Position numbers and translations under genes: made by a program
Notes under the pieces: model-generated
What the model was told of the DNA's origin: nothing
The model's input: the letters and a program-made list of their open reading frames with translations, nothing else
The model's database searches: none
Source: an uncultured Oscillospiraceae bacterium
GTDB lineage: Bacteria; Bacillota; Clostridia; Oscillospirales; Oscillospiraceae
Reading direction: 5' to 3'
DNA: 51,764 nt
Assembly: GCA_947588955.1 (NCBI GenBank)
Contig: CANPYX010000016.1
Location: 1-51,764, forward strand
Part shown: in pieces, positions 42,754 to 48,448 of the stretch
Layout: the number at the start of each line of letters is the position of its first letter
Numbering within the stretch: position 1 is the first letter of the stretch

Positions 42754-44404
<1,651 letters not shown>

Positions 44405-44430
44405 ATTCAAATTAGAGCGAAAAACACAGC

Positions 44431-44734
44431 GTAGGAGCAGCGCCATAAGTTTTGCCCGACAACAGAGCCAAAGCGCGGCGATGTTGAAGGGTAGGGCGTT
44501 CTGACACCCGACCGCGTTAAGCGGCTAAGCGGGTTCGGAGACTGTGCAATTCGGTTTTGGGAACCCGCGCTTCTTTTTTTGCCCGTGCGTGAAAGTTTTG
44601 GACTGCGTGAGCCGACACGCCGACTAAACGGCAGGGCGCAAAATTTTCTGCCGACCCCAAAAAAATTCTTTTTCTCTCTTTTGCTTCTTTTACTCATCTT
44701 TTTCTCATTTCGGAGAAAAAGATGAGAAAAGAAG
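44431..44734 (-). repeat. Family C structured repeat, copy C2 (inverted)
   Basis: The block 44431-44659 is the reverse complement of 18611-18846 with most bases conserved, including CTTCAACATCGCCGCGCTTT and TTAGCCGCTTAACG on the minus strand. The attached long hairpin (44684-44734) has 22 bp with one bulge. Its stem sequence (CTTCTTTT.CTCATC...) differs from that of C1 yet is equally complementary. No gene is seen between gdhA and the GTPase gene. Confidence 0.75.
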
Positions 44735-44768
44735 ATCCCCCCGTCCCTCGCGGGCGGGGGACAATTGC

Positions 44769-44797
44769 TTGCCAACACCGTTTAACTGTGTTAAAAT
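44769..44797 (+). promoter_or_regulatory. Promoter of the GTPase-NYN gene
   Basis: TTGCCA (44769-44774), 17-nt spacer, TAAAAT (44792-44797), 30 nt before the start codon. The spacer carries an inverted repeat AACAC/GTGTT (44774-44778 and 44788-44792), a possible operator. Confidence 0.7.
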
Positions 44798-44826
44798 AAC
44801 GTTGACTTAAAAAAGGGGGTCTTGGC

Positions 44827-47382
44827 GTGTCCGCAAGTGTTATTGGAATACTCGCCCATGTGGACGCGGGGAAGACCACGCTCTCCGAGGCGCTTCTTTA
44901 CTGCGCCGGCGACATCCGAAAACTTGGCAGAGTAGACCACGGGGACGCGTTTCTTGACAATTTCGCCCTGGAGCGCAAGAGGGGCATCACCATATTTTCC
45001 AAGGAGGCGCGGCTGACGCTGGAGGGCAAGACCGCCACGCTCCTTGATACGCCGGGGCACGTGGATTTCTCTGCCGAGACGGAGCGGACGCTGGACGTGC
45101 TGGACTGCGCCATACTTGTCGTCTCCGCGCCGGAGGGGGTGCAGAGCCACACCCGCACGCTCTGGCGGCTCCTGCGGGCGCGGGAGATACCAACGGTTCT
45201 GTTTATCAACAAGATGGACCTCCCCGGCGCGGACCGGGAGGGGATACTCTCTGCCCTCGCCGGCTCCCTGGGGGACGGATTCTTTGACCCCGCGGACTTT
45301 GACTCCGAGACGCTGGCGCTGTGCGACGAGGAGCTTTTAGAGGAGCATCTGGAGCGCGGGGATCTCTCGAAAGAGGCTGTTGACAGGGCTTTTGAGCGGG
45401 GAAACGTATACCCCTGCTTTTTCGGAGCGGCTTTGAGGCTTGAGGGGGTGGAGGAGCTTCTGGCGGGGCTTGGGCGTTTCTCGCCGGTGTGCCGTGAGAA
45501 GGGGAGCTTTGCCGCCAGGGTATTCAAAATATCACGGGACCCGGAGGGCAAGCGGCTCACCCACATGAAGATAACCGGCGGCGCGCTGCGGGTCCGGGAC
45601 ACCGTTTCGGGACCGGACTGGGAGGAGAAGGCGACGCAGCTGCGGGTATACTCCGGCGCGAAATATACCCCCGTGGAGGAGGCCCTGCCGGGGGACATCG
45701 TGGCGGTCACGGGGCTCTCCGCAACCTTCGCGGGGCAGGGCTTGGGAGCCGAGGGGGACGGCAGGGCGCCGGCGCTGGAACCGGTGCTGGGCTACGCCGT
45801 GTATCTGCCATCCGGCTGTGACCTACACAGGACCCTGGCGCAGCTCCGGGAGCTGGAGGAGGAGGAACCGGAGCTGAAGCTGGTGTGGGAGCCGAGGAGT
45901 CAGAGCCTCCACGTCCAAATAATGGGGCAGGTCCAGCTTGAGGTCCTGCGACAGCTTGTTTTGGACAGGTTCGGACTTGAGATCTCCTTCGGTCCCGGCG
46001 GGATAATCTACCGGGAGACCATAGCAAACCGGGTGGAGGGCGTGGGGCACTATGAGCCCCTGCGCCACTATGCCGAGGTTCACCTGATTTTGGAGCCGGG
46101 GGAGAGGGGAAGCGGCGTTGAGATCGCCGCCAACGTCCCGGAGGACACACTTGCCGGCAGTTGGCAGAGGCTCATCTTGACGCACCTGCACGAAAAACAA
46201 CACCTGGGCGTGCTCACGGGCTCGCCTGTCACGGACATAAAAATAACCCTCACCGCCGGCAGGGCGCACCTGAAGCACACCGAGGGCGGCGACTTTCGCG
46301 AGGCGACCTACCGGGCGGTGCGCCAGGGGCTCATGCAGGCTCAAAGCGTCCTTTTAGAGCCCTGGTACGACTTTCGCATCGAGGTGCCCGCCGCCAACGT
46401 TGGAAGGGTGATGACGGACCTTCAGCGCATGGGCGCTCAGTTCGCGCAGGGGGAGGGCGTGGGCTCGGACCCGGTGCTCACGGGTTCGGGACCCGTCTCC
46501 AAGCTGCGCGAGTACCCCTCCGAAATAGCCGCCTTCACCCGCGGACAGGGGCGCGTGAGCTTCGTTTTCCACGGCTACGAGCCCTGCGCGGAGCAGGATG
46601 CGGTGGTGGAGGCGATAGGCTACGACCCGGAGGCGGATATGGACAACTCGCCACACAGCGTATTCTGCTCCCACGGCGCGGGAGTCGTGGTGCCCTGGTA
46701 TGAGGTCAAGGGGCGTATGCACCTGGAGAGCACCCTGGAGCCGCCCAAACCGCCCGATCCCATAAGGGAGGCGGCGGCAAGATACGTGAAGCTCGCCGCC
46801 ACGGACAAGGAGCTCATGGCGATATTCGAGCGCACCTACGGCAGGATAGACCGGGGCGAGGAGGCCATGCGCCCCGCTCCAAAGGAGCCCGAATCACGCC
46901 AAAAGGAGCCGAGGCGCGCCAAAATGCCCCAGAAGGACGGGCTGGAATTTGTGCTTGTGGACGGCTACAACATAATCTTCGCCTGGGAGGACCTTAAAAG
47001 GCTCGCCGCCCAGAGCCTTGACGCCGCCAGGGAGAGGCTCATAGAGCGGCTGAGGAACTACCAGGGCTTCCGCCAGTGCGCAGTCATAGTCGTTTTTGAC
47101 GCCTACAAGGTTAAAAATAACCCCGGCAAGGTGGAGCACCTGGGGGGCGTGTCCGTGGTGTACACCAGGGAGGCGGAGACAGCCGACATGTACATCGAGC
47201 GCGCCACCTACGACCTTTCAAAGCGCCACCACGTCCGCGTCGCCACCTCCGACGGAATGGAGCAAATGATAATCCTCGGCAACGGCGCCCTCCGCGTCCC
47301 CGCCTCCGCCTTCGAAGCGGAGGTCAAGGAGGTGGAGAAGGCGATTGGCGATTATCTGAGGGAGTACAACATCTCAAAATAG
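44827..47382 (+). CDS. TetM/EF-G-like ribosomal GTPase fused to a YacP/Rae1-type NYN nuclease domain
   Basis: 851 residues. The first part is a translational GTPase: G1 A-H-V-D-A-G-K-T-T (10-18), G2 E-R-K-R-G-I-T (49-55), G3 D-T-P-G-H (74-78), G4 N-K-M-D, then EF-G-type domains II-V as in ribosomal-protection proteins (I-Y-R-E-T, H-Y-E-P-L-R-H-Y). After a charged linker (about 670-705), residues 707-851 form a NYN domain like YacP/Rae1: V-D-G-Y-N-I-I (Asp712), V-V-F-D-A, T-R-E-A-E-T-A-D (Asp787) and A-T-S-D-G-M-E-Q (Asp809). Rae1 cuts mRNA in the ribosomal A site of Bacillus. The fusion suggests ribosome-targeted mRNA cleavage. GTG 44827 follows AAGGGGGT. Tetracycline resistance is not implied. 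Confidence 0.9.
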   Translation: MSASVIGILAHVDAGKTTLSEALLYCAGDIRKLGRVDHGDAFLDNFALERKRGITIFSKEARLTLEGKTATLLDTPGHVDFSAETERTLDVLDCAILVVSAPEGVQSHTRTLWRLLRAREIPTVLFINKMDLPGADREGILSALAGSLGDGFFDPADFDSETLALCDEELLEEHLERGDLSKEAVDRAFERGNVYPCFFGAALRLEGVEELLAGLGRFSPVCREKGSFAARVFKISRDPEGKRLTHMKITGGALRVRDTVSGPDWEEKATQLRVYSGAKYTPVEEALPGDIVAVTGLSATFAGQGLGAEGDGRAPALEPVLGYAVYLPSGCDLHRTLAQLRELEEEEPELKLVWEPRSQSLHVQIMGQVQLEVLRQLVLDRFGLEISFGPGGIIYRETIANRVEGVGHYEPLRHYAEVHLILEPGERGSGVEIAANVPEDTLAGSWQRLILTHLHEKQHLGVLTGSPVTDIKITLTAGRAHLKHTEGGDFREATYRAVRQGLMQAQSVLLEPWYDFRIEVPAANVGRVMTDLQRMGAQFAQGEGVGSDPVLTGSGPVSKLREYPSEIAAFTRGQGRVSFVFHGYEPCAEQDAVVEAIGYDPEADMDNSPHSVFCSHGAGVVVPWYEVKGRMHLESTLEPPKPPDPIREAAARYVKLAATDKELMAIFERTYGRIDRGEEAMRPAPKEPESRQKEPRRAKMPQKDGLEFVLVDGYNIIFAWEDLKRLAAQSLDAARERLIERLRNYQGFRQCAVIVVFDAYKVKNNPGKVEHLGGVSVVYTREAETADMYIERATYDLSKRHHVRVATSDGMEQMIILGNGALRVPASAFEAEVKEVEKAIGDYLREYNISK

Positions 47383-47443
47383 GCCGCGGGCAGGGTTTGA
47401 TAAAGCGAAATATTCGGAAAATCCGTTTTTTGGAGAAACTGAT

Positions 47444-47944
47444 ATGGAAAAAATTGTTATCAAAAAGATGGAAAGCGAAGCCGAAATCAACGGCAAAGGA
47501 TATGTTCACTACAAATCCTGGCATGAAACATATACGGGCTTGATTGACGCGGATTATCTTGAGAGGCAAACGCTTGAAAAATGTATAGCGACAGCGCACA
47601 AATGGCCGGACAATATTCTTGTGGCAAAAGACGGAGAGAAGGTCGTCGGATTTGTGGGATGCGGCGCTTACCGTGACGACACGCTTCCTGCCTGCGGCGA
47701 GGTCTTTGCCATCTATGTCCTTGCGGAATATCACGGACAAAGGGTCGGTTACGAGTTGATGAAAGCGGCAGTTGAAAAACTCTCCGCATATAAAAAGATC
47801 GCCGTTTGGGTGCTGAAGGGGAACGAAAGAGCCATTCGATTCTACGAAAGGTTTGGCTTCCGTTTTGACGGGACAGAAGCGCAAATCATGCTCGGCACAC
47901 CAAATACGGAGCTGAGAATGATTTTTGAGAGAGATTCTCTCTGA
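47444..47944 (+). CDS. GNAT-family N-acetyltransferase
   Basis: 166 residues with acetyl-CoA motif E-Y-H-G-Q-R-V-G-Y-E-L-M, strand V-F-A-I-Y-V-L, and the terminal motif N-E-R-A-I-R-F-Y-E-R-F-G-F, all typical of GNAT. The codons are visibly more AT-rich than in the flanking genes, suggesting a different origin. The last few codons form one arm of a family A hairpin (47934-47967), so the gene's 3' end was probably shaped by the repeat. Substrate unknown. Confidence 0.85.
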   Translation: MEKIVIKKMESEAEINGKGYVHYKSWHETYTGLIDADYLERQTLEKCIATAHKWPDNILVAKDGEKVVGFVGCGAYRDDTLPACGEVFAIYVLAEYHGQRVGYELMKAAVEKLSAYKKIAVWVLKGNERAIRFYERFGFRFDGTEAQIMLGTPNTELRMIFERDSL

Positions 47945-48169: not shown

Positions 48170-48448
48170 TCATTCCTCGGCGTTCTGCTTTTTCATACCG
48201 GCAAGTCCCTCGGTATACTCGTCCTCGGCGTTGACTATGAGTCTTGCGAAGGGGAGGAAATATTCGCCGCACTCCGTGAGCTCGACACGGCGGGTGGAGC
48301 GGTTGAAAAGCGTTACGCCCAGCTCCTCCTCCAGCTCCTTTATATGACGTGACAGCGTAGGCTGTGATAAAAACAGTTTTTCTGACGCGGAGTTGAAATT
48401 TCTGAGCTCCGAAAGGGTCAGAAATTCACGCATACTTTGAATTTTCAA
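48170..48448 (-). pseudogene. Truncated LysR-type regulator (DNA-binding domain only)
   Basis: 92 residues matching only the LysR winged HTH: M-R-E-F-L-T-L-S-E-L-R-N-F, S-Q-P-T-L-S-R-H-I-K-E-L-E-E-E-L-G and L-T-E-C-G-E-Y-F-L. A normal LysR protein has about 300 residues; here the frame stops just past the linker helix, and no frame downstream resumes an effector-binding domain. The start is TTG 48448 or ATG 48433. A strong promoter remains upstream. Probably a remnant, though a free LysR HTH could still bind DNA. Confidence 0.75.

Follow-up and report, generated by a model that had tools for sequence, protein, structure and literature searches.

A translational GTPase fused to a Rae1/YacP-type NYN domain in gut Clostridia, a probable ribosome-targeted form of the nuclease

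The window analyzed here is a stretch of 51,764 nucleotides from an uncultured Oscillospiraceae bacterium (assembly GCA_947588955.1, contig CANPYX010000016.1, positions 1 to 51,764, forward strand). It contains a gene for a protein of 851 amino acids (aa) in which an EF-G-like translational GTPase is joined to an NYN nuclease domain of the Rae1/YacP type. Many gut Clostridia encode this GTPase–NYN fusion, usually as their sole copy of that nuclease. In our assessment, the fusion is probably a version of the endoribonuclease Rae1 that is targeted to ribosomes and gated by GTP. The architecture is already published, and function is the missing part. Tet proteins of ten Clostridiales species, identical in architecture to the window protein, were described as having gained a YacP-like NYN domain with a suggested role in resistance, in a passage that leaves aside free Rae1, the tip of the NYN fusions, and mRNA decay (Atkinson 2015, PMC4342817). 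We found no functional study of a GTPase–NYN fusion in the open-access literature. A preliminary description of the window knew of no functional account of such a fusion, which still holds for function, whereas the architecture itself was in print.

Domain organization and conservation

The gene, its upstream signals, and the domains of its product are organized as follows.

44827..47382, + strand: fused gene, EF-G-like translational GTPase plus Rae1/YacP NYN nuclease, 851 aa
44769..44797, + strand: promoter predicted from the letters, −35 TTGCCA, 17-nucleotide spacer, extended −10 TAAAAT
44815..44819, + strand: ribosome-binding-site-like GGGGG, 7 nucleotides 5′ of the GTG start
44839..45471, + strand: G domain, residues 5-215 (Pfam GTP_EFTU and active-site counts)
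45508..45993, + strand: domains II and III, residues 228-389 (Pfam EF-G_D2 and EFG_III, the latter weak)
46003..46344, + strand: domain IV, residues 393-506 (Pfam EFG_IV), the most conserved of all fusion domains
46267..46299, + strand: domain IV tip loop HLKHTEGGDFR, residues 481-491, with K483 at the TetM Pro509 position
46348..46596, + strand: domain V, residues 508-590 (Pfam EFG_C)
46597..46821, + strand: tail with SVFCxHGAGxxVxW motif, residues 591-665
46831..46938, + strand: disordered K/R-rich linker, residues 669-704 (predicted local distance difference test, pLDDT, <50)
46945..47379, + strand: Rae1/YacP NYN nuclease domain, residues 707-851, with D712, N715, D758, D787, and D809 invariant

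The C-terminal domain scores 162.2 bits with the NYN_YacP profile (curated cut-off 24.6), and its predicted model assumes the Rae1 fold when aligned with VIA-align, stopping at Rae1 residue 145-146. The N-terminal part belongs to the translational GTPase superfamily, with GTP_EFTU followed by domains II-V (III weak) and intact G motifs, and EF-G-type factors lead the Foldseek PDB matches of the full-length model.

We aligned 128 complete fusions (127 distinct) with 13 GTPases of the same subfamily that lack the NYN domain, 141 proteins in all (L185, L237, and L234 were omitted). The acidic catalytic-type set of the NYN domain (D712, N715, D758, D787, and D809) is kept in 128/128 fusions, as are D13, G15, K16, D74, G77, K129, and D131 of the GTPase; T17, T55, and H78 are found in 127/128 and N128 in 122/128. 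At the tip of domain IV, His-484, Thr-485, Asp-489, and Phe-490 are present in 141/141 proteins, fused and NYN-less. The mean share of the commonest residue, taken over 41 sequences, is highest in domain IV (0.82), followed by the G domain (0.71) and the NYN domain (0.69). Nonsynonymous divergence (dN) from two congeners is lowest in the NYN domain (0.06-0.11) and domain IV (0.08), with 0.16-0.23 in the other parts. The ratio to synonymous divergence (dN/dS) is ∼0.08-0.16 for NYN, 0.08-0.12 for domain IV, and 0.2-0.24 for G, values to be read with the caveat that dS is only rough at congener distance, that the linker ratio is erratic, and that a third, more distant pair is near saturation. Profile score, fold, and invariant acidic residues thus bear out the YacP/Rae1 domain that the preliminary description had placed at residues 707-851, and the Pfam domains and conserved active-site residues do the same for its EF-G-type GTPase with intact G motifs.

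The linker between the two halves is 29-73 residues long across the 128 fusions (median 36) and enriched in Lys and Arg. The SVFCxHGAGxxVxW tail preceding it is common to the NYN-less sister GTPases; it was not seen in TetW or in the two EF-G-type proteins of the window's genome. Cys-587 (128/128 fusions) and Cys-614 (124/128), encoded at window 46585-46668, are both also present in 13/13 NYN-less members and could possibly form a metal site or a structural pair.

Upstream, the promoter matches 10/12 consensus positions and has a TG preceding the −10, although the region holds 2 such sites at a chance expectation of 0.9. The −10 region is similar in two congeners, one of which (L081) has GGGAGGG in place of the ribosome-binding-site-like GGGGG. 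A search for an RNA regulator gave no Rfam match in 44200-47700.

Distribution of fused, free, and NYN-less forms

The window's genome (96% complete) contains a single YacP domain, the fused one, and two further proteins with an EF-G domain IV. Its rlmB region, considered as a vacated place of rae1, is without YacP. In a sample of 120 genomes from the same family, 73 have a YacP match and 74 a GTPase match, which we read as 72 fusions, two NYN-less GTPases without YacP (G053 and G100), a contig-edge NYN fragment (G103), and 45 genomes lacking both halves. Among the 78 genomes that are ≥90% complete and ≤5% contaminated, the GTPase is absent in 27. Each genome with a YacP match holds only one, and no clear free Rae1 was seen in the 120 genomes, where G026, G057, and G103 have short frames at contig ends.

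The class sample (391 genomes) contains 249 genomes with a YacP match (248 above cut-off) and 164 with a GTPase match. These lists of genomes are complete, and the split into fused and free forms was partly deduced, among the match places listed. On this basis, 142 genomes, or about one third, carry the fusion (∼14 are cut by contig ends or frameshifts, that of G249 before the NYN domain), 93 with YacP and no GTPase match were taken to have free Rae1, and 134 have neither. G447 is the sole genome found with both a fusion and a free Rae1 among the matches listed, versus 39.6 such genomes expected if the two forms were independent. One further genome (G251) has two fusions, and second matches in G254, G319, and G360 are under the cut-off. 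Four families (f25, f26, f31, and f53) hold both fused and free genomes, and the exclusion therefore spans several switches. In the phylum sample (299 genomes, some shared with the class sample), 155 have a YacP match (154 above cut-off) and 20 the GTPase, of which 18 are fused with a single YacP match each; the two NYN-less ones (G697 and G721) have a free Rae1. The survey of domain architectures proposed in the preliminary description thus finds the fusion recurring in family, class, and phylum samples.

In a collection of named genomes, at least 590 stretches encode relatives. The best 80 of them all reach residue 826 or beyond and are therefore all fused; they include Intestinimonas butyriciproducens, Ruminococcus flavefaciens FD-1, Eubacterium xylanophilum, Anaerovorax odorimutans, and Fusibacter. 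That the fusion is usually the sole YacP copy suggests that messages on stalled ribosomes are cut under GTP control.

The NYN-less proteins, annotated as “translation factor GTPase family protein,” belong to the GTPase subfamily of the fusion. The member from Ligilactobacillus salivarius (L105) is 46% identical; on the fusion profile, the NYN-less sister scores 923 bits versus 388 for TetW and terminates at about position 640, without the nuclease. The fusion tip signature is shared by 12/13 NYN-less members (L105 has Val at 483), together with the SVFC tail. Such GTPases occur in 22/391 class genomes, 15 with a separate free Rae1 and 7 without a YacP match. Co-occurrence with free Rae1 exceeds the 9.5 genomes expected (odds ratio 3.1, p 0.013), a signal that is weak because 11 of the 15 genomes belong to one family (f44). 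The L. salivarius gene (L105:5390-7908) lies on plasmid NZ_CP117984.1, divergent from rpsN (ribosomal protein S14), and also adjoins a small “putative metal homeostasis protein.” Extra S14 genes are often under zinc regulation, and a link of this GTPase to metal stress is possible.

The Rae1/YacP protein of Bacillus subtilis (PDB codes 5mq8 and 5mq9) is free-standing, without a GTPase, and possesses a C-terminal F-E-K-x-R-R tail motif that the window protein lacks. By a criterion derived in the present analysis, and not a curated definition, a C-terminal L-E-x-x-R motif is found in 26/26 free Rae1s aligned (the 25 best-scoring loci of the class sample plus L234; 23 by strict pattern, three as variants by eye). 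The strict pattern occurs in only 4/128 fusions, two of which (L208 and L209) were judged correctly placed, and the window protein, which lacks it, is classed as a fusion with a Rae1 domain rather than a plain Rae1. Most free matches of the phylum list end within a few positions of the model end, with family f107 as the exception. The near-complete loss of the motif in fusions suggests that targeting passed to the GTPase; the tail of free Rae1 would then dock on the ribosome. In our alignment, the B. subtilis motif ends at Arg-166, and R166P is among the rae1 alleles that suppress an EF-P deletion, which the authors read as loss of function (PMC6613710). The effect of R166P could equally stem from disturbed folding.

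A single origin of the fusion was not rejected by the approximately unbiased test (p-AU 0.149 for the GTPase tree and 0.631 for the NYN tree), which does not amount to a demonstration. NYN-less members are nested within the fused ones in a quick GTPase tree; in a careful tree, their main clade is basal, with 80/85 support for the rest, and rooting is unreliable with so distant an outgroup. The NYN-less L. salivarius protein groups among fused ones with modest support. A free Rae1 (L056, G361:C1:394804-395292) clusters with fused NYN domains and retains the C-terminal motif, and the NYN-less GTPase of this genome sits on a different contig. This pair is a candidate for the pre-fusion state or for a product of fission.

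The two halves might also do separate jobs: Rae1 would dock unaided, as it does in B. subtilis, while fusing the two would fix just stoichiometry or co-expression. We know of no GTPase requirement for free Rae1 in B. subtilis, a flexible linker would permit independent action, and NYN-less GTPase and free Rae1 are distinct genes in 15 class genomes. However, loss of the C-terminal motif and the near-absence of dual-form genomes suggest that the nuclease has become reliant on the GTPase, which makes separate jobs unlikely. We consider it comparably doubtful that the nuclease trims rRNA or tRNA as part of a ribosome-assembly or repair factor that docks on the particle by a LepA/EF-G-like GTPase. 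NYN domains were proposed for rRNA/tRNA maturation (cited in PMC4342817), free rae1 of B. subtilis shares a transcript with an rRNA methyltransferase gene (PMC6613710), and there is one YacP match per YacP-positive family genome, but the studied homologue of this NYN subfamily is described as an A-site cutter (PMC6613710), and absence from 45/120 family genomes would be odd for a maturation enzyme.

Some individual loci deserve mention. One fused relative (L237, G339:C1:1370537-1373245) comes from a genome assembled as one contig and carries two in-frame TAG codons that interrupt it, through decay or for some other reason. Two unverified “Bacteriophage sp.” records, MT835563.1 (L251) and MT835514.1 (L252), contain most of the fusion (H31 and H32). 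A phage-borne copy was rejected, with 5/10 neighboring open reading frames matching Pfam at 1e-10 and none phage-like: 4/4 neighbors in L252 are of bacterial type (UvrD, FeoB, tRNA-synt_1c, and radical SAM) and 1/6 in L251 (diaminopimelate epimerase). Both are read as bacterial contigs, L251 less surely. In the window, an open reading frame of 92 aa at 48170-48448 encodes just the helix-turn-helix portion of a LysR regulator (Pfam HTH_1) and is perhaps a truncated gene.

Relationship to Tet proteins and EF-G

Tet(M), Tet(O), and Tet(W) share the five-domain EF-G-like layout and the GTPase motifs of the fusion. Tet(O) is the best phmmer PDB match of the window protein, and Tet(W) is 31% identical to it. 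The best curated translational GTPase model is tet_protect (NF012153), at 398.6 bits versus a cut-off of 775; the EF-G model TIGR00484 gives 257.6 bits versus 659.4. The EF-G (717 aa, G000:C25) and the EF-G-like protein (680 aa, G000:C3) of the window's genome likewise comprise domains G-V, and the tip His of both aligns with His-481 of the fusion. They score 315 and 265 bits on the fusion profile, whereas two fusions kept out of profile building score 1231 and 1421 bits. Neither the SVFC-type tail nor the nuclease is found in the Tet proteins or in these two.

The tips differ as well, the Tet loop being YYSPVSTPADFR with Pro509 and that of the fusion HLKHTEGGDFR with Lys483, which aligns to Pro509 of TetM in the phmmer alignment. 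Pro509 of TetM occupies the tetracycline site (PMC8161019). Its position is held by Lys in 125/128 fusions and 12/13 NYN-less proteins, and by Pro in 0/141. Three family genomes encode a second, Tet-scoring protein. Those of G082 and G118, present in addition to the fusion, are 82% identical to Tet(W) and have Pro at this position; that of G099 is 34% identical and has Ile. Judged by its sequence, the fusion would not be classed as a Tet resistance protein. “TetM-like,” as it had been called, is accurate as far as the EF-G superfamily is meant but not for the Tet type, given Lys483 and the separate Tet(W)-like proteins with Pro in two relatives.

A mobile or plasmid gene finds little support, as 2/72,556 plasmid records cover the protein to ≥80%, and the two in question are large replicons classed as non-mobilizable. 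Plasmid annotation labels some members of the GTPase subfamily TetM, TetW, TetO, or TetS (H2 and H6-H24), which may inflate resistance-gene counts. Such proteins are probably not tetracycline-resistance determinants, and this matters for resistome counts.

The tet(M) gene has a leader peptide. That the fusion protects against tetracycline or another drug, its GTPase clearing the drug while the nuclease aids resistance, as suggested in 2015 and as the leading curated model and the public labels would have it, is very unlikely in view of the low model score, the missing Pro, the Tet(W)-like protein already present in G082 and G118, the scarcity of plasmid records, and a −10 that ends 29 nucleotides before the start codon, a distance too short to accommodate a tet(M)-like leader peptide.

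Proposed route to mRNA cutting

For the fusion as a GTP-gated, ribosome-targeted Rae1, we infer ribosome binding, the state recognized, mRNA cutting, and the order of hand-over. The EF-G-like half would enter ribosomes with an empty or slow A site, where the domain IV tip (HxKHTxGGDFR, near-invariant in the family) would probe the decoding center. GTP hydrolysis would release the GTPase half, and the Rae1 domain, on its flexible basic linker of ∼36 residues, would cut the mRNA of the same ribosome, the most likely course being a cut at the A-site/entry side once domain IV has withdrawn. The stalled message would be destroyed and the ribosome passed to rescue.

Several points weigh against this. 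According to published descriptions, Rae1 is an endoribonuclease that acts in the ribosomal A site (PMC6613710), and Tet-type GTPases bind the A site over the EF-G site (PMC8161019). The two halves should therefore not fit into one A site together, and the simple model requires either a hand-over step or cutting at a second place. The 7/22 class genomes with an NYN-less GTPase and no YacP imply some nuclease-independent use of the GTPase, and the 45/120 family genomes with neither half imply a dispensable function. No conserved neighbor gene hints at a pathway among 143 loci, fused and NYN-less pooled, the largest clusters (25 and 21 loci, at mixed positions) looking like large superfamilies. 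Our presence/absence tests count related genomes as independent, and several tallies are our own count among the matches listed. As to the C-terminal motif, the choice of the 26 free Rae1s favors full-length tails, and in many fusions outside the window's family the motif is missing although the tail is about as long (median beyond position 825, 41 residues in fusions versus 49 in free Rae1).

The disordered linker suggests the order of GTPase probing, GTP hydrolysis, departure, and cutting by the tethered nuclease; alternatively, the cut might be made at the mRNA entrance with the GTPase still bound, or on a neighboring ribosome. The coupling of ribosome rescue to mRNA decay, as put forward in the preliminary description, fits sequence, fold, and distribution, but simultaneous occupancy of the A site by both halves is unlikely. 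A fuller picture, possible and proposed only tentatively, is that of a surveillance enzyme in which the GTPase delivers the nuclease and hydrolysis times the switch from probing to cutting; with the docking tail lost, the GTPase would have become obligatory, and free Rae1 may partner the NYN-less GTPase in genomes that encode both separately. The fusion ties the nuclease to a GTPase of the A-site type and would make the questions of how bacteria select stalled ribosomes for mRNA cutting and how Rae1 enters the A site approachable with a single purified protein.
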